Origin: Catenovulum agarivorans DS-2
GTDB lineage: Bacteria > Pseudomonadota > Gammaproteobacteria > Enterobacterales > Alteromonadaceae
DNA length: 64,000 nt
Direction: 5' to 3'
Assembly: GCF_000568405.1 (NCBI RefSeq)
Contig: NZ_ARZY01000006.1
Location: 1 to 64,000, forward strand
Part shown: positions 2,754 through 59,105 of the stretch, one piece after another
Layout of the letters: every line of letters starts with the position of its first letter
Numbering within the stretch: position 1 is the stretch's first letter
Made by a program: the position numbers and the translations under genes
Notes under the pieces: generated by a model
The model's database searches: none
What the model was told of the DNA's origin: nothing
What the model saw: only the letters and a program-made list of their open reading frames with translations

Positions 2754-4781
2754 TTATTTTGGTAATTCTAAAATAAATTCGGTGCCTTGGTTTTCAACAG
2801 ACGAGACCAACAAGCTGCCACCGGCTTGTTCAGCATAAAGTTTTGCATCATACGCGCCTATACCCATACCCGCATTCCCTTTTGTAGTCACAAACGGTTT
2901 AAACAGTTTGTTTTTTATAAAGTCGGCTGACATGCCAATGCCAGTGTCTTTTATCTTTATTTTAATTGTATCAACCAACTCGACTAACTCGACGTTGACA
3001 TAACCATCGTTGGCTGTTGCTTGTTGTGCATTGTCGATAAGATGGTATAAAACATTTGTCAGTTTTTCTATATCGACTTTCACTTCAATTGGTGTTTCAC
3101 TGATTAAATTAGGCAAGGGATGAATGTTTTGGCACCTTTGTTGAATTAACTTGGCCACTTCATCGGTTAAATTAATTGTGGATAATGCATTATTCTCTTC
3201 CGTTGATTTATTCATAAGTTGCGCGAGCATTTTTTCCATTCTTTCTTTGCTGTAGCCTAATGTTTCAAAAGTGTCGTCAATAAACTCTGGGTTGTGTTTA
3301 TGTTTTTCTGCGTTAGCCAAAATCATGTCGACTTGAGCTAACACGTTTTTCAAATCGTGAATAACAAACGCTGACATCCGGCTAAATGCGGCAAATTGAG
3401 CATTTTCGGTAATTTGTTTATTCGCTTCGTGCTGAAAGAGGTAATGCCCGACCTGAGTGGTGACAACTGACATATAATCTCTTATCTCCCAGTTAAAATT
3501 CAAGTATTCACCGCCGCTGTGATTGAGGCACACAACACCCCAGAGTTTTTCTTGATGATAAATAGGGACCACAACATGAAAGGGACTATTATCTATCAGG
3601 TTATATGGAATGGATAAACCGGGGTAGTGTTGGCTATTACTTTGATAGTCTTTGAGATCAACGATCCAATTCGTTTTTTCAATAAAAGGTAGGACTAAAG
3701 CTAAAATTTGCTCACAGCTGTTAGGCTGATTCTGTTGCTGTAAGTTTTTATCAGCAACTGCTTGCAACTTTCCTAATCTATTTTTGTATAAAGCACCGAC
3801 ATCGTATTCGATTGAAAACAGAAATACCGTCAGCGCGCGGTTGTAATAATCGTCTTGATTTTGCAGTGGTGAATTGAGTAAGTTAGTTAGATTTAGCCAC
3901 TGCACACGGTAGTCGAATTGGTTTGCAAAAAAATGTTTTTCTAAAAATACTTTAAGATTTTTTTTAAGAGACTCAGAGATAAATAAGGCAAACAATAAAG
4001 TAAAAGCAAGCGCAACAAATATGCTTTGTACCATGCCCGTCCATTGCGACTCGATACTTTTGATATAGTAGCCAGCTAGTGCCATCAGGGTGAGGTAGAC
4101 GCCAGCTGCTAACAGTAAACTACTTTGAAAAACCATTTCGCGAGAAATGTATACCTTGATGCCTAATGTCTTAGAGCGTTTGATTGACCAAAGCAACAAA
4201 GGAACCAGTGCTGTGTGCAAATAACCTCTGGCTAACCACATATCTGGGTTTACTTGCAGAACTAAACTAGCATTGGCAAAAATAATAAAATCAAATATTA
4301 ATAGGGTGCCGAGAGCAAGAATCAGTGGTTTTAACCCCCATAGCTTACGATCTGCTTTGCGGTAGAGTATTTCAAGCAAAATCAGTGACAACACAGTTAA
4401 CGACAAGTAACCAATATAAAACCAAGCTTCACCAATAAGCTTAAGTTGCCCTAGAGTTGGGGTGAAAATAGTGACAAGTAAAATGATAATCGAATAACGA
4501 GACAATAGAAGTTTGTTAAAATTCCAGCCATTATTCAGTAAGCTGAGCAATAACAGCCCTGTGCTACCCAAACGTAAGCTTTCAACCCAGATAATGCTGG
4601 ATGTGGATAAGTCACTTGTCTGCTCTACTAAATGCCCCAGCGACCAAATAAATCCGCATAGGGCAAATAAGACGAACAAAACATATGCAGATGATTTTTG
4701 CTTATTTACAATACCCAACAGAATTAATGTGAAGTAAGCGAATAAGGCTGTGGCAAAACCTAGCCAGTTAATAATTTCCAT
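2754..4781 (-). CDS. prsK: PrsK, membrane histidine kinase of the PEP-CTERM system
   Basis: A 675-residue sensor kinase. Residues 1-270 hold a series of hydrophobic segments (multi-spanning membrane sensor), followed by a GAF-like domain (about 310-450). The kinase core has an H-box around H475 (HDLKN), N-box LIDNAQQA (581-588), G1 box DTGIGM (612-617) and a glycine-rich G2 box (635-642). This matches the XrtA/PEP-CTERM histidine kinase family, the expected partner of PrsR encoded directly downstream. Inferred role: it senses an envelope signal and phosphorylates PrsR D50 to switch on sigma-54 promoters of PEP-CTERM genes. The signal is not known. Confidence 0.93.
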   Translation of the reverse strand: MEIINWLGFATALFAYFTLILLGIVNKQKSSAYVLFVLFALCGFIWSLGHLVEQTSDLSTSSIIWVESLRLGSTGLLLLSLLNNGWNFNKLLLSRYSIIILLVTIFTPTLGQLKLIGEAWFYIGYLSLTVLSLILLEILYRKADRKLWGLKPLILALGTLLIFDFIIFANASLVLQVNPDMWLARGYLHTALVPLLLWSIKRSKTLGIKVYISREMVFQSSLLLAAGVYLTLMALAGYYIKSIESQWTGMVQSIFVALAFTLLFALFISESLKKNLKVFLEKHFFANQFDYRVQWLNLTNLLNSPLQNQDDYYNRALTVFLFSIEYDVGALYKNRLGKLQAVADKNLQQQNQPNSCEQILALVLPFIEKTNWIVDLKDYQSNSQHYPGLSIPYNLIDNSPFHVVVPIYHQEKLWGVVCLNHSGGEYLNFNWEIRDYMSVVTTQVGHYLFQHEANKQITENAQFAAFSRMSAFVIHDLKNVLAQVDMILANAEKHKHNPEFIDDTFETLGYSKERMEKMLAQLMNKSTEENNALSTINLTDEVAKLIQQRCQNIHPLPNLISETPIEVKVDIEKLTNVLYHLIDNAQQATANDGYVNVELVELVDTIKIKIKDTGIGMSADFIKNKLFKPFVTTKGNAGMGIGAYDAKLYAEQAGGSLLVSSVENQGTEFILELPK

Positions 4782-4818
4782 AAATTAAGTGCTTGATAAA
4801 TAATTTGCTTCGGTCACA

Positions 4819-4846
4819 ATATTAATTAATTAAAACCAAAGCTCAA
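4819..4846 (-). promoter_or_regulatory. Candidate sigma-70 promoter for prsKR
   Basis: Reading the minus strand, TTGAGC (complement of 4841-4846) is followed after 16 bp by TAATAT (complement of 4819-4824), about 38 bp before the prsK ATG. This is the only reasonable sigma-70-like pair I see there; it is a pattern match only. Confidence 0.35.
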
Positions 4847-5096
4847 TCATAGTGTCGAATATTTTGACATTGTTTTTCGATAAGGGCGCGGTATGGCTAC
4901 ATTAGACGTACAATAGCCTGATTGAATTTAATTTTGCTGTTTGAGTGCTGAAGGGGTTATGAGATAGTTAGGTTAGTATTGCTTTTTTGATTTCTACCCA
5001 CAGAACACGAGTTTATATCTGGTTGGTTGTGTCGGGATCCTTTACAGTGCTTTTGTCGAGCTTGAAAAAGGTGTTTTAAATCAGGTGTTTAATTGT
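4847..5096. other. Intergenic region between divergent prsK and Tat-protein gene
   Basis: Within the 419-bp gap between prsK and the gene at 5201 I see no coding frame of note. It holds a likely prsK promoter at the left and a sigma-54 element plus leader hairpin at the right. The middle part (4850-5060) may carry upstream activator sites for PrsR, as expected for a sigma-54 promoter, but I could not identify a convincing palindrome. Confidence 0.4.
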
Positions 5097-5112
5097 TGGT
5101 TTGTTTTTTGCA
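5097..5112 (+). promoter_or_regulatory. Sigma-54 (-24/-12) promoter of the Tat-protein gene
   Basis: TGGTTTGTTTTTTGCA keeps the invariant GG (5098-5099) and GC (5110-5111) at the canonical 12-bp offset and a perfect TTGCA -12 element. The CAC of the -24 box is replaced by TTT. Transcription would start near 5123, giving a leader of about 78 nt. PrsR, encoded next door, is the natural activator. Confidence 0.55.
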
Positions 5113-5143
5113 TATTTGGTGGATAAGGTATACTATTACTAGT

Positions 5144-5177
5144 AAATGGTATTTGAGCGACTCGTTAAGTACCATTT
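5144..5177 (+). repeat. Inverted repeat in the leader of the Tat-protein gene
   Basis: AAATGGTA (5144-5151) is repeated inverted as TACCATTT (5170-5177) with an 18-nt spacer that itself contains GAGCGACTC. It lies between the predicted start of transcription and the ribosome-binding site (AGGAG, about 5189-5193). It could be a leader stem-loop or an operator. Confidence 0.4.
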
Positions 5178-5200
5178 AAATTAATTTAGGAGTTCTTGGC

Positions 5201-6121
5201 GTGAAAGGCAGAAGACAATTTTTAGCACGTACATCAGCTGCCGCTGTTGTTGGGTCTATTCCAGCTAAGTCTGTTTGGGCGGCAAACGGGATGTTGAATT
5301 CAATTGTGGCTTCAGGACACGGTTCGGATTTCACTTATCACCGCGACATTAGATTATTGAGGCCGTGTTCAATTAAAAATGTATTAGAAGACCCATCACT
5401 TGGTTTAGGGTCTTATGATTTGAACTTTTATGAGACGTTTAACGAAGGACCTAATAAAAAATTCTCTGAGATTTTAGATTGTTATTGTTGTCCAATTGAT
5501 CCAGTGACTCTGAATAAGGATATTAGTAACGTTGTTTTTTTAGTTGTAAATGGTACATCCCAAAAGCAAATTAAAATTGACTATACAGTAACTACTCGGG
5601 TCTCGACTCATCCTATTGGATATTACGCTGCTGTAGAAGCAGCTGCGGGTGGTTCAGGTTGGACTGTCCAAGAATATGTTATCAAGGCAGGTAACCCCTA
5701 TCATAGCAATCCAGCTAAAAGAGGGTTTTTCTATCATTCAACCGATGGTTATATCACAGGTGATTCAACAATAAATTCAACAGGGTATAACGGGTGGTAT
5801 AAAGGCTACTCTGGTATAACAGAACTAAAAAATCCGAGCTATGAAGCAGGTGGCTTTGCAAACAATACTTGCGATGAAACAACTGTCCTTATGGCTACAA
5901 TATATTTAAACGCTGTATTGGATTATGAATTCAGAGGGAGCTCAGACCCTAGAGCGTGGCAGGGAGAACATAATATTTTTTATCCTATATTGCGATATCC
6001 AGCGACTTATACAGACGTCAATAATTTGATTACAAGCATAAAAGATACCCAAACAAAGAGCCAGCTTGGTGCAATATTTGCCGAATATGGTGTAGACAAC
6101 TTTGGTGATTCATGCAGTTAG
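5201..6121 (+). CDS. Predicted Tat-exported protein of unknown function
   Basis: I do not recognise this 306-residue protein. The GTG start is supported by AGGAG eight bases upstream. The N-terminus reads MKGRRQFLAR, a twin-arginine motif (R4-R5, then F7-L8), followed by an Ala-rich hydrophobic stretch and a VWA-A cleavage site near residue 27, so Tat export is likely; tatABC is in the same window. The mature part has six cysteines (56, 94, 96, 97, 224, 305), including a C-Y-C-C cluster, and is rich in Gly, Tyr and Asn. It ends in Ser-Cys-Ser and has no PEP-CTERM signal. It is preceded by a sigma-54 promoter and followed by a strong terminator and then a PqqD/kinase/nucleotidyltransferase cassette. 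That layout suggests it may be the substrate of that cassette; this is inference. Confidence 0.8.
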   Translation: MKGRRQFLARTSAAAVVGSIPAKSVWAANGMLNSIVASGHGSDFTYHRDIRLLRPCSIKNVLEDPSLGLGSYDLNFYETFNEGPNKKFSEILDCYCCPIDPVTLNKDISNVVFLVVNGTSQKQIKIDYTVTTRVSTHPIGYYAAVEAAAGGSGWTVQEYVIKAGNPYHSNPAKRGFFYHSTDGYITGDSTINSTGYNGWYKGYSGITELKNPSYEAGGFANNTCDETTVLMATIYLNAVLDYEFRGSSDPRAWQGEHNIFYPILRYPATYTDVNNLITSIKDTQTKSQLGAIFAEYGVDNFGDSCS

Positions 6122-6148
6122 TTGTTGTCAACTGATAAAGCTATTTTG

Positions 6149-6181
6149 CTCACCTATTATGTGAAATAGGTGAGTTTTTTT
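6149..6181 (+). terminator. Strong rho-independent terminator
   Basis: Perfect 10-bp stem CTCACCTATT (6149-6158) / AATAGGTGAG (6165-6174), 6-nt loop, then a run of seven T. It ends the Tat-protein transcript, leaving only about 30 bp before the next gene, so the downstream cassette probably depends on read-through or a promoter overlapping this site. Confidence 0.88.
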
Positions 6182-6211
6182 ATTACTTTTCGTTTTAGTG
6201 GCGTGTGATTC

Positions 6212-6409
6212 TTGTTTTTAAAGCAGCATATCCTGTTTAATGAGTTTTCAGATGGAAGTGGTGTCGTTTTATTTAATCCCACTAACGGAGCTGTTATTGG
6301 TATTCGATATTCGATCGAGCAGTTAGTGCCACAAAATAAAGATGTACCGGAATCGTTAATTAATGACCTGATAAAACAAGGTTTTTTACAAGCAGTTAAG
6401 GTTAGCTAA
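6212..6409 (+). CDS. PqqD-like small protein of the HPr-rel-A system
   Basis: A 65-residue protein with a TTG start (an upstream in-frame GTG is cut off by a stop). The sequence pattern (a hydrophobic strand, then VVLFNPTNGAVIGI, then a helix with a conserved Leu/Val pattern) is that of PqqD-type peptide-recognition domains, which bind leader peptides in ribosomal peptide pathways. A PqqD-related protein next to an HprK-related kinase and a nucleotidyltransferase is a known gene trio found mostly in exosortase-bearing proteobacteria; its function is not established. It abuts the kinase gene directly (stop TAA, then TTG). The initiation signal is weak. Confidence 0.72.
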   Translation: MFLKQHILFNEFSDGSGVVLFNPTNGAVIGIRYSIEQLVPQNKDVPESLINDLIKQGFLQAVKVS

Positions 6410-7267
6410 TTGAAGTCATTAATCGATTTTGGTGCAGTAAAAATCTATATTGATTGCTCTGTCAAGTTGGCTGAGCGAAATATAAATCATCTGTACCCAT
6501 CATATGTTCTTGAAGATAACACTGTACCTCCAGACTACTTTGTTTCATTAAAGTATGGCGGTGGCATTCGCCGATTTGTTCGTAAGCAAGTGTTATTTGA
6601 ACAAGATAGCAAATCTCACTTTAAGCCTGTTCCCGAAAATCATGCTTATGCTTCGTTTGAATGGGGGTTAAATTATGTGGTATCGAATTATGCACAAGAA
6701 TTTTTAACGATTCATTCAGGTGTTGTTGCAAACAACGACAAGGCTGTTATTTTCCCAGCCCCACCTGGTTCTGGAAAAAGTACGTTAACCACCTATTTAA
6801 TGGGGTTGCCTGGCTGGCGTTTACTTTCTGATGAAATGGCTCTGATGTTGCCTGAAACAAGCTATATCCAGCCACTTATCAAACCGGTGTGCTTAAAAAA
6901 TAATTCAATTGATATTGCAAAAAAGTGGTTTCCAGATGGTAAATTTTCGTCAATAGCATCAGCAACAGCAAAAGGTGACGTTGCTCATCTATCCCCGCCA
7001 GCGTCCAGTTGGCAACAACGTGACCGGGTTGCTAAAGCAAAGGCGATCATTTTTCCTAAATATACCCCAAACAAAAAAATGGAAATATATAAGCTTGATA
7101 AAAATCAAGGGTTTATGCAGTTAGCTGAAAATGTAATTAACTTGTCGCTGCAGGGAGAGAGAGGCTTCAACACATTGACGCACTTGATTGAAAATACTGA
7201 GCAATTTGAAATACTCTACAGTGATGTAAATGAAGTTAAAGATTTTATTGAGCAGGACCTGCTTTGA
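6410..7267 (+). CDS. HprK-related kinase A
   Basis: A 285-residue protein related to the C-terminal kinase domain of HPr serine kinase/phosphorylase. It has a P-loop APPGSGKST (117-125), a preceding conserved His (IHSGVV, H102) and a downstream acidic SDE (140-142), as in HprK and in PEP carboxykinase-like folds. The N-terminal DRTGG domain of true HprK is absent. Related stand-alone kinases phosphorylate a C-terminal serine in some lasso peptides, so a peptide or protein substrate is plausible here. TTG start with AAGG eight bases upstream. It overlaps the next gene by four bases. Confidence 0.82.
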   Translation: MKSLIDFGAVKIYIDCSVKLAERNINHLYPSYVLEDNTVPPDYFVSLKYGGGIRRFVRKQVLFEQDSKSHFKPVPENHAYASFEWGLNYVVSNYAQEFLTIHSGVVANNDKAVIFPAPPGSGKSTLTTYLMGLPGWRLLSDEMALMLPETSYIQPLIKPVCLKNNSIDIAKKWFPDGKFSSIASATAKGDVAHLSPPASSWQQRDRVAKAKAIIFPKYTPNKKMEIYKLDKNQGFMQLAENVINLSLQGERGFNTLTHLIENTEQFEILYSDVNEVKDFIEQDLL

Positions 7268-8379
7268 GCAAACATAAGATTTCTTCACAACAATTATTTG
7301 ACTTGTTAGCCGACAGTCAGAACGCGTTAGATTTGAGTGATAGTGATTGGGTTGATGTTATTAGGATCTTCCGTTCAGAAAGTGTTCTCGCTCGATTTGC
7401 TTGCCAACTTGAAGAATCAGGCGTTATCACCCAATTACCGAGTTATGCGACTAAGCATTTGGCGAATGCAAAGTTGGTTGCGCAGCGTCAAGTATCATCT
7501 GTTCGGTTCGAGTGTGCAGAAATCCTTCATATTGCAAAAAATACATGTGAAAAACTTTATTTACTAAAAGGTGCTGCATACTGCTTGGCTAGTTTGCCTG
7601 TTTCGAAAGGGAGAACTTTCTCTGATATTGATTTGCTGGTGACTAAAGATGTGCTAGCACAAACTGAGACGTCGCTTAAACTTCATGGTTGGTTATCCGA
7701 ACCATTGTCCAAATACGATGAGGCGTATTATAGAGAGTGGGCGCATGAAGTACCACCAATGAAGCATTCGGGGCGGGGCACTGTTATCGACCTTCATCAC
7801 AATCTATATTTGCCTGTATCAGGACGAGCACCTAAAGTTGAACTGTTTTTAGAAGGTGCGATTGAGACAGATGGCTTTCATATATTACGGCCGGCCGCAA
7901 TGACTTTACATGCAATTATCCACTTAATGTTAAATGATGACTTAAAACATGCATTTCGTGATCTAAATGACTTACATTTGATGATGACTGAATTTAGCAA
8001 GCAAGCGTTTTGGGAAGATTTATTAGATTTAGCTCACAAATCCGGATTTGAAAATGAGCTGTTTTTAGCTTGTAGATATTGTAGGCACTTTTTTAAAACC
8101 TCCATATCGACGGAATACCTAACCAAGTTAGCTAATATGCAAAACATGAATCAATCGGAGATCAAGCTGTTAGATAGGTTCTATGCACTTGCCTTGTCAC
8201 CAAAACACTATCTGGTTAAAAGGGCATCAGCTAACTTTGCTGAGCTTGTTATCATTACCCGCGCTCACCTTAAAAAAATGCCAATCAAAATCTTACTTTA
8301 TCATACTGCGTATAAAGTTTACCGTTCTGCTGTCGAGTCTTTGCTAGGTAAAGCATTTTTTGAAAAATCAAACTCTTAA
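7264..8379 (+). CDS. NTP_transf_5-type nucleotidyltransferase
   Basis: A 371-residue member of the 'uncharacterised nucleotidyltransferase' family. The signature KGAAY (102-106) followed by GRTFSDIDLLV (116-126) supplies the nucleotidyltransferase fold's paired aspartates (D121, D123). The rest is helical. Family members occur with HprK-like kinases and PqqD-like proteins in this trio and in some lasso-peptide clusters, where they are suspected to add a nucleotidyl group to the phosphorylated product. Here the gene starts with a TTG overlapping the kinase stop (TTGA), so the two are translationally coupled. Confidence 0.82.
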   Translation: MSKHKISSQQLFDLLADSQNALDLSDSDWVDVIRIFRSESVLARFACQLEESGVITQLPSYATKHLANAKLVAQRQVSSVRFECAEILHIAKNTCEKLYLLKGAAYCLASLPVSKGRTFSDIDLLVTKDVLAQTETSLKLHGWLSEPLSKYDEAYYREWAHEVPPMKHSGRGTVIDLHHNLYLPVSGRAPKVELFLEGAIETDGFHILRPAAMTLHAIIHLMLNDDLKHAFRDLNDLHLMMTEFSKQAFWEDLLDLAHKSGFENELFLACRYCRHFFKTSISTEYLTKLANMQNMNQSEIKLLDRFYALALSPKHYLVKRASANFAELVIITRAHLKKMPIKILLYHTAYKVYRSAVESLLGKAFFEKSNS

Positions 8380-8382
8380 CAC

Positions 8383-8406
8383 CCCCGTTAGGTTTAATGC
8401 ACGGGG
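8383..8406. terminator. Hairpin between convergent genes
   Basis: CCCCGT (8383-8388) pairs with ACGGGG (8401-8406) across a 12-nt loop in the 27-bp gap between convergent stops. GC-rich, but without a T-tract. Confidence 0.45.
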
Positions 8407-9159
8407 CTATTCCAACAGCGCCCGTAAATATTTAACGGGTATAGCGTAAGTAATCGCGCTAGGGGCGGATAGCACGTTTTCTTTGCTTTGTTTAACCAAA
8501 ACCTTGTTGATAACCCCGATAACTTCACCTGTTGATTGCAGATATAACGGGCTTCCACTATTGCCAGGGTAAGCAGTTGCGTCTAATTGGTAAGTCATCC
8601 ATGGCGCTTTTAAACGCTTTAACCTCGCAATATTGAGTTGTGTACTTGTTGCTGCTGGTACTGCTACTGGGGTTACAGCACTAATTATCCCTCTGTGGGT
8701 GACTGGGTATAAACCTAGCACGCTGCCAATTGGGTAGCCTGTAAAAGCAATTTCGTGACCCTCTTCAACAAGGTTGTCTCCTTCAACAAAGTTGAGTGGC
8801 GGCAGTTTGTGAGTGGTTAATTGGAGAATTGCTAAATCATGCTCTTTGTCTGTTTTTACCAGCTTGGCAAAATCTAACTTAGGTGTTTTTCCTGTACCAA
8901 TAAAAACCACAATCGAGCTTTTATCTCCAGAAATTATTTCAGGGATAACATGGTGATTAGTTGCAACTAATCTGCCATCTCCAATGGCAAAACCAGTACC
9001 GCGCACTTGTGCTCGCGGCGAGCTGGTCGGGCTATAAACACCAATCGCTACAATCGAAGGTTTAATGCTCTTAATTGTTTGTACTAATGGCTGGCTAAGG
9101 GCATTAAATGATAAAAATCCTAGTATAAATAACGCGTAACAGGTACATTGTTTAACCAT
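8407..9159 (-). CDS. Secreted trypsin-like serine protease (Do/S1 family)
   Basis: A 250-residue trypsin-fold protease with a signal peptide (hydrophobic run to about residue 22). The catalytic triad is visible: H70 in ATNHHV, D108 in EHDLAIL and S201 in YPGNSGSP. There is no PDZ domain, unlike DegP/DegS. I chose the ATG at 9159 because AAGGAA lies about ten bases upstream and the signal peptide then begins MVKQ; an upstream GTG at 9186 would add nine residues containing that ribosome-binding site. Probably periplasmic. Divergent from the DUF218 gene, with only 38 bp between starts. Confidence 0.85.
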   Translation of the reverse strand: MVKQCTCYALFILGFLSFNALSQPLVQTIKSIKPSIVAIGVYSPTSSPRAQVRGTGFAIGDGRLVATNHHVIPEIISGDKSSIVVFIGTGKTPKLDFAKLVKTDKEHDLAILQLTTHKLPPLNFVEGDNLVEEGHEIAFTGYPIGSVLGLYPVTHRGIISAVTPVAVPAATSTQLNIARLKRLKAPWMTYQLDATAYPGNSGSPLYLQSTGEVIGVINKVLVKQSKENVLSAPSAITYAIPVKYLRALLE

Positions 9160-9197
9160 AGTGATTATTTCCTTAATTGACGTCACAGTTAGGTAAG

Positions 9198-12751: not shown

Positions 12752-13606
12752 ATGTTTGATTATAACAGCGCTTTTTCGCGTAACATTGGTTGGGTTACCA
12801 AAGAAGAGCAGCAGGTTTTACGGGGAAAACGGGTTGCAACCGCTGGTGCTGGTGGGGTTGGCAGTGAGCACATTGTTACGCTTGCGCGGTTAGGCATTGG
12901 CAAGTTTAATATTTCAGATTTTGATGAATACGAGGTGCACAACTTTAACCGTCAAGCGGGCGCTTTTATGTCGACTATCAATCGACCTAAAGTAGAAGTG
13001 ATGGAAGAAATTGCAAGTGATATCAATCCAGAACTTGAGATTAAATCATTCCCTGAAGGTATAAATGAAAGCAATGTGGATGAGTTTCTAGCAGACGTTG
13101 ACATATACGTGGACAGCTTAGACTTTTTTGCATTGCAGGCTAGAAAGCTAGTTTACCGAAAATGTTATGAAAAAAAGATCCCGTTAGTTACAGCGGCTCC
13201 GTTAGGTATGGGTACTGCTTTGTTGTGTTTTATGCCAGGCAAAATGAATTATGAAGAATACTTTCGTTTTGAAAACTGTAAAAACGAAGAAGAGCAATAT
13301 ATTAAGTTTTTGATTGGCTTAGCGCCTTCTCTGGCACAAAATTCCTATCTAGTGGATAAAACCGCAGCAGATTTTGCCGCACGCAAAGGCCCGTCTACAC
13401 CAATGGCGGTAAAAATGTGTGGTGGTGCAGCTGGCACTTATGTGCTTAAAATTCTTTTAAACCGAGGGCCAATTCTTGCTGCACCTTGGGGCATTCAATT
13501 TGATGCATACAAAAATGTTGTTAAAAAGACCTATCTGCCCTTTGGTAATAATGGTCTGTTACAGCGCATTAAGTTTCAAATAGCTAAAAAGCTGGTACTC
13601 AAGTAG
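12752..13606 (+). CDS. ThiF/E1-like adenylyltransferase-family protein
   Basis: A 284-residue Rossmann-type E1/ThiF/MoeB family protein. The nucleotide loop GAGGVGS (32-38), the acidic DFDEYEVHNFNRQ segment (56-68, with the family's N..RQ) and K80 are all present, as needed for ATP binding and acyl-adenylate formation. I do not see the paired CxxC zinc motifs of MoeB/ThiF, nor an obvious catalytic cysteine in the usual place, so sulfur transfer or ubiquitin-like conjugation is uncertain. AAGGAG ribosome-binding site. Family members fused or adjacent to nitroreductase-like domains are known (Rv1355c type). It may activate a carboxylate for the neighbouring enzymes; inference. Confidence 0.82.
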   Translation: MFDYNSAFSRNIGWVTKEEQQVLRGKRVATAGAGGVGSEHIVTLARLGIGKFNISDFDEYEVHNFNRQAGAFMSTINRPKVEVMEEIASDINPELEIKSFPEGINESNVDEFLADVDIYVDSLDFFALQARKLVYRKCYEKKIPLVTAAPLGMGTALLCFMPGKMNYEEYFRFENCKNEEEQYIKFLIGLAPSLAQNSYLVDKTAADFAARKGPSTPMAVKMCGGAAGTYVLKILLNRGPILAAPWGIQFDAYKNVVKKTYLPFGNNGLLQRIKFQIAKKLVLK

Positions 13607-13613
13607 AGATATT

Positions 13614-14705
13614 ATGAAACCTTCAGTCACAATTTCCCCTTTATTAACCAAAGTCTTAGATTCCGCACGCTGGGCACCTAGTGGTGACAACGTTCAGTGT
13701 TGGCGCTTTGAAATAACCGGCGAGCACACATTTGTTATTCACGGTAAAGATACTTCTGATCATGTTGTATACGATTTAGAGGGGCACGCAAGCTGGTTAG
13801 CTGTCGGTTGTTTGCTCGAAGCGATTGATTTATCTGCTGCACATGAAGGTTATGAAGCAGTTTTTCAACATATTGATTGCGAATTGCCTCAGGAAATTCG
13901 CATTGGTGTAGAATTAAGCGAGCGGCCTGGTATTGCGCAAGACCCATTATATTCACAAATTATTCGTCGTTGCGTTCAAAGAAAACCAATGGGCACAACC
14001 CCGCTTAGCAGTGCGGAGAAAAAAGCGTTTGAGCAATCCTTACCCAATGGATTTGAGGTAATATGGTTAGAAGGTGATCGAGTTAAGCAGCAAGTTGCTA
14101 AATTTATGTACGGCAATGCTGATACTCGGTACTCGATGAAAGAGGGGTATGAGGTACACTCTAAAATAATCGATTGGCGGCCTGAATGTCGGCGGTATAG
14201 CCCAGATCTTATACCGCCGTTAGCGCTGGGGCTCGATGCTATCAATATAGCATTGACAAAGTGGTCGTTAAAAAGCTGGTCGCGTTTTCATTTTCTAGAA
14301 AAATACCTTGCTGGCACTGTATTGCCAAGGTTACTAATGGACTACCGCACCTCAATCAAATGTTCAGCGCACTTCGTCATTGTGGGCGATAAAACTGCAA
14401 AATCACAATGGGACTATCATAACGCCGGCAGAGCTGTTTATCGGTTTTGGCTAACTGCTGCTCAGCTCAATTTAGGTTTTCAACCAGAGCAAACCCCAGT
14501 TATTTTTTCGGAGTATATTCGTAATGGTGTTGAGTTCAGTGAAAATCCTTACACGAATCAAAATGCTGACAAAATGGATCAAGTGTTCAAGCAACTGATT
14601 GGCGAAGACAAGGTGCAGCGCTCTGTATATATGGGAAGAGTTGGACGCAGCGAATTACCAACCTCAAGATCTGTGCGCAAACCACTTACAGAATTATTGC
14701 TATAA
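13614..14705 (+). CDS. Nitroreductase-like flavoprotein
   Basis: A 363-residue nitroreductase-fold protein. The N-terminal ARWAPSGDNVQCWRF (18-32) is the flavin-binding start of this family, and the C-terminal part (RVGR) fits the phosphate-binding end. It is longer than ordinary nitroreductases, with an inserted middle region (about 180-250), like the Rv1355c-type proteins in which a ThiF-like domain is fused to a nitroreductase. It lies 7 bp after the ThiF-like gene. A redox step on a small molecule or peptide is plausible but the substrate is unknown. Confidence 0.78.
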   Translation: MKPSVTISPLLTKVLDSARWAPSGDNVQCWRFEITGEHTFVIHGKDTSDHVVYDLEGHASWLAVGCLLEAIDLSAAHEGYEAVFQHIDCELPQEIRIGVELSERPGIAQDPLYSQIIRRCVQRKPMGTTPLSSAEKKAFEQSLPNGFEVIWLEGDRVKQQVAKFMYGNADTRYSMKEGYEVHSKIIDWRPECRRYSPDLIPPLALGLDAINIALTKWSLKSWSRFHFLEKYLAGTVLPRLLMDYRTSIKCSAHFVIVGDKTAKSQWDYHNAGRAVYRFWLTAAQLNLGFQPEQTPVIFSEYIRNGVEFSENPYTNQNADKMDQVFKQLIGEDKVQRSVYMGRVGRSELPTSRSVRKPLTELLL

Positions 14706-29355: not shown

Positions 29356-31272
29356 ATGTGTGGAATAGCAGGGTTTAGTCGAGTTAATTTCTCTGGTGAT
29401 ACAGAGCTATTAGTGCAAATGGGCAATACAATCGCACACCGCGGGCCTGATGCGCATGGCGAATATGTCAATGACAATGTTGGTTTGTGCCATAGACGTT
29501 TATCTATTATCGACTTGTCTGAAGCGGGTAAACAACCAATGCATTCTGCAGATGGGCAAGTATCTATCGTCTTTAACGGTGAAATTTATAACTATCAATC
29601 GGTACGTGCTGAACTGATCGAAAAAGGCCATGAGTTTGCTAATCAAACCGATACTGCGGTTATCATTGCTGCATACAAAGAATATGGTGAAGACTGTTTA
29701 GCCCATTTAAATGGGATGTTTGCTTTTGCAATATGGGACCAGGCTCAACAAAAGCTGTTTATTGCGCGTGATAGGCTTGGCAAAAAACCTTTATATTATT
29801 ATTTTGATGGTACAGACATCTTTTTTGCTTCAGAGCTTAAAGCGCTGAAACAAATCCCACAAATACCAACAGAAATTAGAACTGACGCTGTTTATGACTT
29901 TTTTGCTTACCAGTATATTCCAGATCCAAAAACCATATATCAAAATATCTACAAGTTGGAACCTGGTCATTGCATTAGTTTTCAGCAAGGTAAGTTAGAT
30001 AAACGCCAATATTGGGACGTTAGTTTTGCCAATACAGATAATGCTGACATCAAACAACACGAACAGGAACTGATTAAAACAGTTACTGAATGTACTAAAA
30101 CACGTATGGTAGCAGATGTACCTTTGGGCGCATTTTTGAGTGGTGGTGTCGACTCAAGTGGCATAGTTGCTTTGATGTCTAGTGTTGCCAAGGAGCAAGA
30201 CGGCGACAAAGCGAAACCAGTGACTACCTGTTCAATCGGTTTTGATGTTAAAGCATTTAATGAAACCGAATTCGCGCAAGTTGTTGCAGACAAATACCAA
30301 ACCGACCACCATGAATTTATTGTTCATCAAAACGTTAAAGACAACTTAGCCAAAATTGTGCGCTATTTTGACGAGCCATTTGCTGACCCTTCGCTTGTTC
30401 CAACTTATTTTGTATCTGAGCTTGCACGCCAACAAGTAACAGTTGCCGTGGCTGGTGATGGTGGCGACGAAATTTTTGCCGGTTATGAAAAATACGCGGT
30501 AGACGCCCAAGAGAATAAAATTCGTGATGCCTTTCCTAGCTGGTTTAACAAAAACATAGCACCAAGTTTAGCGAAAATTATCAGTGTTACTCCACTGCTT
30601 AATAGAAGTACTGTGGGAAGAAAAGCTTGTTCATTGTTAAATACTTTAGCCGTAGACCCTGCTATGGGCTTTTATTACTCCAATGCATTTATAACGGATA
30701 AAACTTGGTTAAGTCTGGTTAATGAACAAACCTCAGCAGAGCTAGCTGGTTATCACCCGAGTAAAATTACTTTAGACAAATATAGCCAAGCGGATGGCCC
30801 AGATCATTTAGCTAAAGTGCTGTACACTGATTTAAAAACCTTTTTACCGGGTGGCATTTTAGTTAAAGCCGACCGCATGAGTATGGCGAATTCGTTAGAA
30901 GTGCGCGCGCCATTGCTTGACTATACTGTGGTTGAACAAGCGGCTAACATACCGTCCGAATACAAGTTTAATCAAGGCGATAAAAAACATATTTTAAAGA
31001 ATATATTTAAACCTTTATTGCCAGATGAAATTTTATATCGAAAAAAAATGGGCTTCAGTGTGCCGCTGGCAGATTGGTTTAGAAATGAAATTAAACAGAT
31101 AGCAGAAGATAAACTATTGACCAATAATGCAGGTTTAGTTAAGTATTTTAAAGCCGACGCAATTAAAAAATTATGGGATGAACATCAATCAACCAAACAT
31201 GACCATGGTGCAGTGCTTTGGAGCTTGTTGATGTTCCAAATGTGGTGGGATGAGTATGTCACAGCAGAATAA
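29356..31272 (+). CDS. Asparagine-synthase-type amidotransferase of the XrtA system
   Basis: A 638-residue class II glutamine amidotransferase: the mature N-terminal Cys2 (MCGIAGF), an Ntn glutaminase domain (to about 200) and an ATP-pyrophosphatase domain with SGGVDSSG (near residues 264-271). Length and context (between FemAB-like and glycosyltransferase genes) match the exosortase-system amidotransferase rather than housekeeping AsnB. It probably aminates or amidates an EPS sugar or uronic acid. AGGA ribosome-binding site. Its 3' end overlaps the next gene by 23 bases. Confidence 0.86.
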   Translation: MCGIAGFSRVNFSGDTELLVQMGNTIAHRGPDAHGEYVNDNVGLCHRRLSIIDLSEAGKQPMHSADGQVSIVFNGEIYNYQSVRAELIEKGHEFANQTDTAVIIAAYKEYGEDCLAHLNGMFAFAIWDQAQQKLFIARDRLGKKPLYYYFDGTDIFFASELKALKQIPQIPTEIRTDAVYDFFAYQYIPDPKTIYQNIYKLEPGHCISFQQGKLDKRQYWDVSFANTDNADIKQHEQELIKTVTECTKTRMVADVPLGAFLSGGVDSSGIVALMSSVAKEQDGDKAKPVTTCSIGFDVKAFNETEFAQVVADKYQTDHHEFIVHQNVKDNLAKIVRYFDEPFADPSLVPTYFVSELARQQVTVAVAGDGGDEIFAGYEKYAVDAQENKIRDAFPSWFNKNIAPSLAKIISVTPLLNRSTVGRKACSLLNTLAVDPAMGFYYSNAFITDKTWLSLVNEQTSAELAGYHPSKITLDKYSQADGPDHLAKVLYTDLKTFLPGGILVKADRMSMANSLEVRAPLLDYTVVEQAANIPSEYKFNQGDKKHILKNIFKPLLPDEILYRKKMGFSVPLADWFRNEIKQIAEDKLLTNNAGLVKYFKADAIKKLWDEHQSTKHDHGAVLWSLLMFQMWWDEYVTAE

Positions 31273-45920: not shown

Positions 45921-46765
45921 GTGGTAAGAGGGGCTGCAATCCCAATAACATCATATTGATGTGTCGTAAACTGCTTAAAAAATGGCGTGTTACGGTCAAT
46001 TACTTGGTTCGATTGACTTGGAACAAACCAAGTAAATTCACGATGTTTTTCGGCTTCTATGAAAATATCTTCTGCAGTGATGTTTTCGCGTTTAAGTACA
46101 TCCGGGTGTATTTCAACCATAATGACTACATTTTCACATTGTTTTAATAGGCTTTTAGCTCCAGCTAAGGCTGCAACTTCTTGTCCTTCAACATCAATTT
46201 TAATCACAATGTTTTTGTACTCGTATAGAGCATAAGCTGCATACAAATGATCAATTGTCACAACTTGAGTTGAGCCTGGGACATTTTTGTCAATATAGCC
46301 TTCGTGATCTGAACCTAAGCCGGTATTAAAGTTTAAGTTAACCAAACCATTAAAATCGGAAATTGCGAAATTTAGCGGCAGAAAACCAATAGATTCGGCA
46401 TTTTTTTGTAAAATCTTAAATGAATTAGGGTTAGGCTCTAGTGCAATTATTTTATCCAGTGGGCATTGGCTATCGAGTTGTGCACTTACGGTTCCAATAT
46501 CTGCGCCTAAATCTAACAAACAGCTTGAACCTTTAAATTGCTGGATGACACCGGCCAAAGGCTTGATATCTTCGGGATAATAATTTGCAGGTCCATATTC
46601 TAGCCAAAAACACCATTGATCCCAAGGCACATAGAAATCCTTGCCTTTGATTTTGTGTTGGATAAGTCTTCTGCCAAAACCAAGTTTTAAACCTAGGCGG
46701 TAAATTGCATATTTACCTCTGACTTCATTGAGTTGTAACCACTGAAGCAGTTTATTGGTAAACAT
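45917..46765 (-). CDS. FkbM family methyltransferase
   Basis: A 282-residue SAM-dependent methyltransferase of the FkbM type: LLDLGADIGTVSAQL (SAM-binding motif I, about 87-101), ALEPNPNSFKILQKNA and IDVEGQEVAALAGA (about 189-202). Likely O-methylates an EPS sugar. Overlaps the exosortase gene by 14 bases upstream and the convergent beta-helix gene by four bases at its 3' end. Confidence 0.85.
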   Translation of the reverse strand: MFTNKLLQWLQLNEVRGKYAIYRLGLKLGFGRRLIQHKIKGKDFYVPWDQWCFWLEYGPANYYPEDIKPLAGVIQQFKGSSCLLDLGADIGTVSAQLDSQCPLDKIIALEPNPNSFKILQKNAESIGFLPLNFAISDFNGLVNLNFNTGLGSDHEGYIDKNVPGSTQVVTIDHLYAAYALYEYKNIVIKIDVEGQEVAALAGAKSLLKQCENVVIMVEIHPDVLKRENITAEDIFIEAEKHREFTWFVPSQSNQVIDRNTPFFKQFTTHQYDVIGIAAPLTT

Positions 46766-48245
46766 GTTGCAGCTGCTTTACGAAACTCATTGCTGACTGT
46801 ATTAGCGCTTGTTGAGCTTGTTTTTTATCTTTTAATTCAGTGTATTCTGCTGAGACCAACAACCTATGACTTTGTTTGTCGGCGCCAAGAAATTTATCTA
46901 ATGTTTGTAGCAATTTACTTTTGACTGCTGAGTTGCCTGTATATTGATTAGTTACATAGATATCAAGCAATAATCGATTGTTACCATGTGGGCTAGTTAT
47001 TTCACTCAGGCGAGCCGTGTATGCGTTGCCATTGTTAAGAGGTATAGTTCGTGAGGTTTTTAAACTCCAACTTGTCGGGTCGTAACGTCTATGTACACCT
47101 GATACCAGTTCTCCATCGCTATTTGCCGCGTAATAGGCAATAAATATTTCTACAGAGTGGCCAAATCTGTTTGTTTGGGTAAATTGGATTTTATCTGCAT
47201 CAGCTATTTTAGGGCTGACGGCAAATTCTTTAGGGTCGTTTGCAGTCACCAGGTTTAGCTGTTTTACCTCAATAGGTTTAGGGGAGTCAATTAAACTCAA
47301 CCATAACCATTGTGTAATTAGCAATCCACAGACAAATGCGAAGTGGTAGTTGGTTTTTTGGGAGTTAATCGATAGTTTTGCTTCAGTTTTTTTGAAAGTA
47401 GCTTGTTTTTGCTTATTTGTTGTTGGCGATAGATCCCGCATCCAGTTACCGAGGATAATCAGCATAAACAATACTAAACAATAGAAAAACCAACCATAAA
47501 TGAGGTGGTCAGCACCTGCTGCATATTGCATGTCGGTTAAATGTGCAATATAGATAATGCCAAATACCCGAACTCCGTTAGCGAGAATGGGGACAATAAA
47601 GGATACTAGTACAAAAGCTAACTGTCTTTTAAGGCTATAAAAGCTCACATAAGCAAATAAACACCCAAATACAATAGATACAATAAAAAAGCTAATACCT
47701 GAGCAGGCTTCGGCAACTAAGAAGCGCCCTTGAGGAATTTCGATGTACAAACCGTTTATATAGGTGGGGATATCTATCAGTTTGAGAAGAAATATTGCGA
47801 TACTTGCCGCTACTTGCTGTAGAGTTGGGATGAGCTCCTCACCCACTGGAATAGCAAACAACATAAATGCCAGCGGAAATAGGATCACTTTACTTGCTTT
47901 CAAACCCATTATAGAAACAACTATCAGTGGTAATGCAGCGAAGGTGGCCATATGCATCAAGAGAGCTATATCACCCGCATAGCCATAGATGTAAACTAAA
48001 ATGCATGGTATTAGCAAAGTTAACCAGACAAATTGTGGTTGAATCGTTTGTAGTTGCAATTCAGTGCGTTTTTGCCAGATCAAATATAGGCTGATTGGCA
48101 GTACAAACAGGCAGTGGTTAAAAATGTCTGAGGTGATCCATACTGTATAGGCGGTTATGAGTCCTTGGTTAAACGCAACGGCCCAAAAAATGGTAGATAA
48201 CCCTAGAATTATGTCTACCTTGCGATTTATAAGCGTATGTTGCAT
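46752..48245 (-). CDS. xrtA: Exosortase A fused to an EpsI-like domain
   Basis: A 497-residue polytopic membrane protein. The exosortase core (residues about 1-270) has the catalytic triad in the right order: C181 in EACSG, R226 in NGVR and H247 in ADHLIYGW. This is the transpeptidase-like enzyme that recognises VPEP C-terminal signals, here those at 11025 and 14872. The C-terminal part (about 300-497) starts with another hydrophobic segment and is soluble, in keeping with the EpsI/DUF3485 domain often fused to XrtA. Lies between the methyltransferase and deacetylase genes with small gaps. Confidence 0.92.
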   Translation of the reverse strand: MQHTLINRKVDIILGLSTIFWAVAFNQGLITAYTVWITSDIFNHCLFVLPISLYLIWQKRTELQLQTIQPQFVWLTLLIPCILVYIYGYAGDIALLMHMATFAALPLIVVSIMGLKASKVILFPLAFMLFAIPVGEELIPTLQQVAASIAIFLLKLIDIPTYINGLYIEIPQGRFLVAEACSGISFFIVSIVFGCLFAYVSFYSLKRQLAFVLVSFIVPILANGVRVFGIIYIAHLTDMQYAAGADHLIYGWFFYCLVLFMLIILGNWMRDLSPTTNKQKQATFKKTEAKLSINSQKTNYHFAFVCGLLITQWLWLSLIDSPKPIEVKQLNLVTANDPKEFAVSPKIADADKIQFTQTNRFGHSVEIFIAYYAANSDGELVSGVHRRYDPTSWSLKTSRTIPLNNGNAYTARLSEITSPHGNNRLLLDIYVTNQYTGNSAVKSKLLQTLDKFLGADKQSHRLLVSAEYTELKDKKQAQQALIQSAMSFVKQLQHVYQ

Positions 48246-58008: not shown

Positions 58009-58362
58009 ATGCTAGATATTGGTTTTTGGGAATTAATACTCATAGGTATTGTTGCTTTGGTTGTACTGGGGCCCGATAAGCTTCCAGGTGCCGTAAGAAG
58101 TGTTGCGTCCATTATGCGTAATGTTCGCCAAACCGCCAATAATCTAAAAGCTGAGCTAAACCATGAGCTGCGGGTCAACGAGTTGCATCAGCAACTAAAG
58201 GAAGCCGAGCAAAAAGGCATGACAAACTTAAATGAAGGTGAACGCAGCGCGATTGCTGAATTAGAAGCCGCAGCGCGTGAAGTGAACTCAATTCATAAAG
58301 ACATCACTCAGCCAACATCTGAGCAATCAGCCCAAACCAAACCGAAAAACGAACAGCCATGA
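58009..58362 (+). CDS. tatB: Tat translocase subunit TatB
   Basis: A 117-residue protein with one N-terminal helix (MLDIGFWELILIGIVALVVLG), the GPDKLP motif, a long amphipathic helix and a charged tail. Substrate-receptor partner of TatC. Follows tatA by one base and overlaps tatC by four (ATGA). Confidence 0.96.
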   Translation: MLDIGFWELILIGIVALVVLGPDKLPGAVRSVASIMRNVRQTANNLKAELNHELRVNELHQQLKEAEQKGMTNLNEGERSAIAELEAAAREVNSIHKDITQPTSEQSAQTKPKNEQP

Positions 58363-59105
58363 GCGAATCTCAACCTCTGATTGCACACTTAGTCGAATTA
58401 AGAAATCGTCTGCTGAAAATTGTCCTAGCAGTGCTTATTGTATTTGTTGCTATGGTTGGTTTTGCTAATGATATATATTCGTGGATAGCGCAACCCTTGC
58501 TCAATGCACTGCCTGAAAACACCAATATGATAGCAACAGGAGTTGCAACGCCATTTTTAACACCGTTTAAATTAACCATGGTGTTATCAATTTTCGCGGC
58601 TATGCCATTTGCGTTGTATCATGTTTGGGCGTTTATTGCCCCTGCTTTATATCAACACGAAAAGCGCTTAATCGCACCTTTGTTATTTAGTTCATCTTTA
58701 TTGTTTTACGGTGGAATGGCCTTTGCGTATTTTGTAGTCTTTCCTTTGGCGTTTCCATTTTTTGTTGGCTCAGCCCCCGATGGGGTAACCGTTTCGACCG
58801 ATATAAATAGCTATTTAGATTTTGTTTTAAAATTATTTTTCGCTTTTGGTATCGCATTTGAAATTCCGATAGCAATTATTTTAATGGTGTGGGCTGGGAT
58901 ATCTACGCCTGCAGCGATAGCGGAAAAGCGTCGTTTTGTTGTTGTGGGTGTATTTGTTGTTGGCATGTTATTAACACCTCCAGACGTGATATCACAAACT
59001 TTGCTTGCTATTCCCATGTGGTTTTTATTTGAATTTGGTTTGATATGTTCCAAATTGTATTACAAGCCAGATACTGAGCAAAAAGAACAAGAGGAAGGTA
59101 ACTAA
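58359..59105 (+). CDS. tatC: Tat translocase subunit TatC
   Basis: A 248-residue protein with six hydrophobic segments and TatC hallmarks: HLVELRNRLLK near the start, a P-L-A-F-P-F-F region and the conserved LLTPPDVISQ. It recognises twin-arginine signal peptides. ATGA coupling to tatB. Confidence 0.96.
   Translation: MSESQPLIAHLVELRNRLLKIVLAVLIVFVAMVGFANDIYSWIAQPLLNALPENTNMIATGVATPFLTPFKLTMVLSIFAAMPFALYHVWAFIAPALYQHEKRLIAPLLFSSSLLFYGGMAFAYFVVFPLAFPFFVGSAPDGVTVSTDINSYLDFVLKLFFAFGIAFEIPIAIILMVWAGISTPAAIAEKRRFVVVGVFVVGMLLTPPDVISQTLLAIPMWFLFEFGLICSKLYYKPDTEQKEQEEGN

Follow-up and report, generated by a model that had tools for sequence, protein, structure and literature searches.

An exported Tat-leader protein as near-constant partner and probable substrate of the HPr-rel-A kinase system

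The enzymes most like those described here come from lasso-peptide tailoring. According to two reviews, HPr-kinase homologs phosphorylate a serine of the precursor in those pathways (PMC8498205), and the tailoring HprK homologs require a His-Lys-Asp-Asp set of residues (PMC9266682). The same reviews make the nucleotidyltransferase PsmN responsible for the hexoses on the phosphoserine of pseudomycoidin and leave nucleotidyl transfer possible (PMC8498205, PMC9266682). A trio consisting of a PqqD-like protein, an HprK-related kinase and a nucleotidyltransferase is named by NCBI as the "HPr-rel-A system" without a function. Our literature search, mostly without subscription papers, found nothing on that system itself; related terms returned only lasso-peptide papers. 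We studied the trio of Catenovulum agarivorans DS-2 in a stretch of 64,000 nucleotides (contig NZ_ARZY01000006.1, positions 1 to 64,000; hereafter the window), where it follows a gene for a protein with a twin-arginine translocation (Tat) leader. The enzymes were already known as a system with no stated substrate. What is new is a near-constant exported partner, its two types and its fixed serines.

We consider it rather likely that the four genes together make up a protein-modification unit, in which the Tat protein undergoes leader-guided modification on serine and is then exported through Tat. By analogy with lasso tailoring, we propose that serine is phosphorylated before export and that a second group may cap the phosphate. 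The Tat protein is probably the substrate that the trio chemically modifies, because it usually lies beside the trio and its serines are almost unchanging. Because the exported partner is near-constant and its candidate serines are named, the system can now be tested. If the proposal is right, leader recognition in the style of ribosomally synthesized and post-translationally modified peptides (RiPPs) extends to large Tat-exported envelope proteins.

The locus resembles the HPr-rel-A system in having a kinase above the curated cut-off, with PqqD-like and nucleotidyltransferase genes as neighbors in the same order. It differs in that the matched models describe enzymes only and give no substrate, while the Tat protein lies outside any family. 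With lasso tailoring (the paeninodin kinase PadeK/ThcoK; PsmK and PsmN; the B1 type of RiPP recognition element, RRE), it appears to share the combination of an RRE, an HprK-like kinase and a nucleotidyltransferase directed at a serine of a leader-bearing precursor, PsmN being likened by description. Unlike in lasso tailoring, the putative substrate is a Tat-leader protein of about 125 to 310 amino acids (aa) and not a peptide, no lasso cyclase lies beside the trio, and the fixed serines of the long type follow the leader. The unit may work like a lasso-peptide tailoring set. We did not file it as a lasso or RiPP pathway, because a precursor of 306 aa, or of about 125 to 300 aa in relatives, is not a short one releasing a modified peptide and because no gene of the window scored as a lasso cyclase. 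Compared with HPr kinase/phosphorylase of the phosphotransferase system (PTS; structure 1jb1), the upstream His, the Walker A Lys and the following Asp align (E 0.031), whereas the window kinase has no Pfam match and its linked gene encodes an exported protein. NapD and DmsD are Tat proofreading and maturation chaperones for redox enzymes. Compared by description, they too are small proteins expected to bind a Tat leader; unlike them, the window protein is of the PqqD/RRE type by profile and is accompanied by a kinase and a nucleotidyltransferase.

Two sets of kinase loci were used to ask how constant the Tat protein is. TIGR04352 scored above its cut-off in 29 of 295 genomes of the order and in 61 of 398 genomes of the phylum. 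Since the two samples overlap, these gave 83 distinct kinase places, and 82, with the window included, were analyzed after omission of one kinase split over contig ends (G580). We refer to these as the sample set. The database set holds the best 80 of at least 287 kinase relatives, includes Alteromonas, Glaciecola, Massilia, Duganella, Sulfuricella, Gallionella, Methylobacter, Cellvibrionaceae and Magnetovibrio, and overlaps the sample set by at least five loci (L144, L145, L149, L150, L151). A Tat-leader protein was encoded directly upstream of the kinase locus in 72 of 82 sample-set loci, 68 by leader pattern and four by eye after a pattern miss (L052, L075, L079 with an 82-aa open reading frame (ORF), and L103). 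At L096 the automatic choice fell on a wrong ORF, but the correct one is present. The pattern fitted 67 of 976 other ORFs of at least 120 aa in the same loci. In the database set the count was 76 of 80, with three loci lacking such a gene and one cut by a contig end; inspection by eye moved L154, L182, L212 and L217 from absent to present, and L179 and L213 the other way. The loci cut by contig ends, L092 in the sample set and L193 in the database set, were scored as misses. The nucleotidyltransferase gene directly followed the kinase gene in 71 of 80 database-set loci. A PqqD-like ORF was found in 76 of 79 loci, a generous count because iteration of the profile at E 0.01 was confined to ORFs with suitable size and position. 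At L179 and L213 the PqqD-like gene is present, and an HslV-like protease gene, recognized by eye, takes the place of the upstream Tat gene.

Linkage also held in the reverse direction. When the window Tat protein was the sole query, 21 of 147 genomes of the family matched at E ≤ 0.001, itself included, and many matches spanned only about residues 2–55. In all 20 other genomes (L003–L022) the Tat gene lay directly before a PqqD-like ORF and a kinase gene; these loci are short, and the nucleotidyltransferase mostly falls beyond their ends. A Tat-family profile run over the 147 whole genomes detected the Tat protein in 64, and a kinase match was present in 66. Both were present in 64 genomes and the Tat protein alone in none, and 64 of 65 profile matches sat 228–838 bp upstream of the kinase match. 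Because the profile was built from kinase neighbors, this count mainly shows that there are no copies elsewhere, and the single-query search is the unbiased direction. The window Tat protein gave no match in a first scan of genome contigs and none against plasmids. The sequence-only reading of this DNA, made without database searches, had inferred that the Tat protein and the trio belong together and had named linkage across genomes as the check, with a lack of it as the adverse outcome. We ran that check and found conserved linkage in both directions, which strongly supports the assignment of the Tat protein to the trio.

The Tat protein has the twin arginine, hydrophobic stretch and AxA-like end of a Tat substrate, and its export is predicted from these features. 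Neither Pfam nor NCBIfam has a family covering the window protein or its aligned relatives, and a search for sequence relatives of the Tat family in the PDB gave nothing below E 0.35. Generic Tat-signal models in the libraries weakly matched 2 and 7 of 74 members in two scans and left the window protein unmatched, and two public plasmid records, from Vibrio alfacsensis and Sphingomonas parapaucimobilis, annotate such proteins as "hypothetical protein." The relatives fall largely into a long and a short type. For the long type we aligned 74 proteins, namely the window protein and 73 of the 76 database-set Tat proteins (L181, L186 and L212 were left out for uncertain ends). Mean column identity was 11%. 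Against that background the twin arginine was present in 74 of 74, S34 in 73, S38 in 72 and N237 in 69; other residues reached at most 64, and S42 stood at 53. A leader resembling RRxFTKAGxAASGVxLTLASRPVLG recurs in relatives, and the wider long-type pattern is approximately C-[ST]-x-S-G-x-x-S-G-N-x-S, of which the window version is NSIVASGHGSDF. An alignment-free count agreed: S...S within 34 residues after the leader occurred in 76 of 76 proteins, compared with 33.9 on average and at most 44 over 500 shuffles, and S...SG after the leader in 56 of 76, compared with 5.8 in shuffled sequences.

Short-type proteins are 129–194 aa long and keep the leader together with a C-terminal pattern near [ST]C[WF]xS[FL]. 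They come from a lineage resembling the Sphingomonas plasmid protein and from lineages mostly without a detected exosortase. Their alignment holds 33 of 38 labeled proteins, 28 of 29 picked for having no S...S and five chosen by eye (L081, L082, L088, L089, L100); L060, L075, L079, L096 and L103 are omitted. The serine of the C-terminal pattern was kept in 33 of 33 and the cysteine in 32 of 33. When the two types were compared with hhalign, the leader alone aligned (38 columns, probability 95.7, with no ordinary Tat leader as control). A conserved leader with a divergent remainder is thus seen across the two types, and the long type also keeps a C-terminal stretch around N237. As judged from the alignments, both types fix serines, at different places, beside the same kinase family. 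The sequence-only reading had placed the modified residue at the C-terminal serine of Ser-Cys-Ser in the window protein. This site is not supported, because only 10 of 76 database-set relatives end in Ser while S34 and S38 are nearly fixed. We rejected it for the long type at large, although a serine near the C terminus is indeed fixed in the short type.

The catalytic residues of the two larger enzymes are conserved. The kinase ORF matched TIGR04352 HprK_rel_A at 289.7 bits (cut-off 200), and the closest named kinase among the matches listed was that of Alteromonas sp. KUL42 (69% identity). H102, K123, D141 and E142 were invariant in all 81 kinases, the window's and 80 from the database set. 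In a weak alignment these residues fall on the His, Walker Lys and Asp-Asp of HprK structure 1jb1. The kinase thus has the lasso-type His-Lys-Asp-Asp set with Glu in fourth place, a placement made via 1jb1 and not via a lasso kinase. Six kinases above the TIGR04352 cut-off (L070, L071, L072, L078, L086, L094) show, by eye, no PqqD-like gene and no Tat gene immediately upstream, and yet their Walker A and Asp-Glu are intact. When substrate type was mapped on the kinase tree, the long type formed one group (1 change) with a support of just 55/5, the short type needed 10 changes and the losses were scattered; the tree is weak because the kinases are near relatives. The nucleotidyltransferase ORF matched PF14907 NTP_transf_5 at 131.8 bits (cut-off 31.2), and its LKG, D121, D123 and D176 were kept in 71 of 72. 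It had no sequence relatives in the PDB at E up to 1.

For the PqqD-like family we aligned 38 proteins, the window's and 37 from the 76 loci with a PqqD-like ORF. TIGR04353 ("HPr-rel-A system PqqD family peptide chaperone") matched 23 of these 38 and PF05402 PqqD matched 8, both at E ≤ 0.1. The family profile hit TbiB1, a lasso RRE, at E = 1.9e-4; for PqqD itself the value was only 0.26.

The gene unit and its conservation, the fixed serines and the intact catalytic residues are observations, and from them we infer the following course of events. In the cytoplasm, the PqqD-like protein would bind the leader of the Tat protein, and the HprK-related kinase would then phosphorylate at least one of the near-invariant serines after the leader (S34, S38). 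The phosphate probably receives a second group from the NTP_transf_5 enzyme, either a sugar or a nucleotidyl group as reported for PsmN. The modified protein would leave through Tat and lose its leader. In the order to which the window belongs, it may act in the exosortase/PEP-CTERM exopolysaccharide envelope. A stronger form, possible but doubtful, is an RRE-guided line for whole exported proteins, where the PqqD-like protein would read the Tat signal, hold the precursor while a phospho-linked group is built on serines of the mature domain, and release it only afterwards. If true, this would be a new kind of phospho(glyco)protein in the envelope of exosortase bacteria and a new kind of Tat proofreading.

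Several observations weigh against leader-guided serine modification. In the sample set, S...S followed the leader in only 38 of 67 proteins: all 29 from the order had it, but just 9 of the 38 from elsewhere. Chance alone puts S...S in about one of two shuffled segments. The fixed serines could also serve folding or another partner. The structure model of the Tat protein is poor (predicted local distance difference test score, pLDDT, 55.9). No recognizable Tat protein was found directly upstream of 9 of 82 sample-set and 3 of 80 database-set kinases, and by eye six of those nine also lack a PqqD-like gene there. The linkage counts are not independent events, because many loci and genomes are related, and linkage is a sign of shared function, not proof of catalysis. 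For the window PqqD-like protein neither Pfam nor NCBIfam gave a match with E ≤ 1; its own structure model has a pLDDT of 88.6, and the best PDB match, to TbiB1 with its leader, is weak (E 0.22). Finally, only three residues precede the twin arginine in the window leader, and this leaves little room for a separate recognition stretch.

That last point bears on another explanation, namely that the PqqD-like protein serves above all as a Tat proofreading chaperone and that the kinase and nucleotidyltransferase use nucleotides to control release or export, leaving no lasting mark. A window leader with almost no n-region beyond the Tat signal, and a leader that is the part common to both substrate types in the hhalign comparison, are what such a chaperone would have. 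It leaves unexplained, however, the near-fixed serines in the mature part and a nucleotidyltransferase with a conserved DxD...D site, and we regard it as unlikely. The genomic setting would also fit a different target. The Tat protein might be a co-exported partner or reader, and the trio might act on another molecule, for example a peptide from another locus, a PEP-CTERM protein or a polysaccharide carrier. The window itself holds an XrtA locus, and in the order sample an exosortase scored above cut-off in 29 of 29 kinase-bearing genomes, compared with 75 of 295 overall (Fisher p 4.4e-20, relatedness ignored). Yet in the phylum sample an exosortase was detected in only 32 of 61 kinase genomes (many of the remaining 29 are incomplete), and in 24 of the 29 without one the Tat protein still adjoins the kinase. 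Of the two, the Tat protein is therefore the more constant neighbor. We rejected the exosortase as a constant partner in general and retained it for the order, where it is a common setting of the trio. A target other than the Tat protein is, in our view, quite improbable. A regulatory phosphorelay, in which the kinase would respond to metabolites as PTS HprK does and would reversibly phosphorylate the Tat protein or another protein before export, seems very unlikely. The kinase is indeed HprK-like and adjoins PrsK and PrsR in the window, but no Pfam family matches it with E ≤ 1, the HPr kinase domain included, PrsR-like and PrsK-like genes lie near just 15 and 12 of 80 database-set loci, and a reversible signal is hard to use on a protein destined for export.

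The order of the four genes and the elements between them (Table 1) is as the sequence-only reading gave it: Tat-leader protein, terminator, PqqD-like protein, HprK-like kinase and NTP_transf_5 enzyme. The tight coupling it described for the trio is also borne out, as the successive ORFs abut or overlap.

Table 1. Features of the four-gene unit and the adjoining protease gene, in window coordinates
Feature	Position	Strand	Details
Tat-leader protein, 306 aa	5201..6121	+	ORF with GTG start; Shine-Dalgarno-like GGAG upstream; C terminus ...DSCS
Twin-arginine leader of the Tat-leader protein, residues 1-27	5201..5281	+	RR at 5210-5215; ends SVWA; ...RRQFLARTSAAAVVGSIPAKSVWA
Post-leader serine motif SIVASGHGS	5300..5326	+	S34 5300-5302, S38 5312-5314, S42 5324-5326; candidate modification sites
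Intrinsic-terminator-like hairpin and T-tract between the Tat gene and the trio	6148..6185	+	11 pairs, hairpin 6148-6175
PqqD-like protein, 65 aa, putative RRE-type leader binder	6212..6409	+	
HprK-related kinase A, 285 aa	6410..7267	+	H102, Walker A G120-T125, D141-E142
NTP_transf_5 nucleotidyltransferase, 371 aa	7264..8379	+	LKG...D121xD123...D176
HtrA/trypsin-like protease	8407..9186	-	Frequent trio neighbor, outside the core

The terminator between the Tat gene and the trio is real in the window, with a T-tract after the hairpin and a fold z of -4.05. The suggestion that a leaky terminator here keeps the precursor in excess over its enzymes does not generalize. Among the 72 of 76 loci with a usable PqqD coordinate, terminator-like hairpins followed the Tat gene in 15, compared with 11 after the HprK gene and 9 in shuffled sequence, and we rejected the layout as a general device. 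In these 72 loci the median distance from the Tat stop codon to the start of the longest PqqD ORF was 12.5 nt. In four Glaciecola/Paraglaciecola loci (L146–L149) a short hairpin follows closely on the Tat stop codon; its sequence in L147 and L149 is AGGGATGC...GCATCCCT, with TTTCTGAT next to it.

The inducible-type promoter ascribed to the Tat gene was not confirmed. The region held seven promoter-like matches compared with 11.1 expected, the nearest upstream of the gene being at 5107–5134. Control by sigma-54 through the neighboring PrsR was tried and rejected: no -24/-12 match with at most two mismatches lies within 4782–5200, and the total of 51 compared with 42.75 is at chance level. Rfam gave no match at gathering scores within 4700–8500. 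A perfect 8-bp inverted repeat, AAATGGTA/TACCATTT (5144–5151/5170–5177), lies downstream of this promoter-like site and ahead of the Tat gene; its RNA fold is modest (z -1.77).

The wider setting is an XrtA/PEP-CTERM exopolysaccharide locus with a TIGR03015 ATPase, PrsR, PrsK, PrsT, FemAB, and chain-length and autokinase genes; exosortase A is encoded by the ORF at 46752–48245. No lasso cyclase scored above its NCBIfam cut-off in the window. An AsnB-like protein (29356–31272) reached 299 bits against a cut-off of 525 for lass_lactam_cya and 690.1 against a cut-off of 816.9 for TIGR03108, and fits the XrtA amidotransferase better than a lasso cyclase.

A few further neighbors were recorded. The HtrA/trypsin-like protease could process the exported protein; matches to such a protease occurred within about 6 kb in 34 of 80 database-set loci, in 15 of 37 long loci from the order or family and in 1 of 23 from the phylum. 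A tatC gene (58359–59105; TIGR00945, 239.6 bits) lies in the same window, about 50 kb from the Tat-leader gene. A pair encoding a ThiF-like adenylyltransferase and a nitroreductase-like protein (12752–14705) sits beside an exosortase acyltransferase gene, and a ThiF match was found near the trio in 14 of 80 database-set loci.

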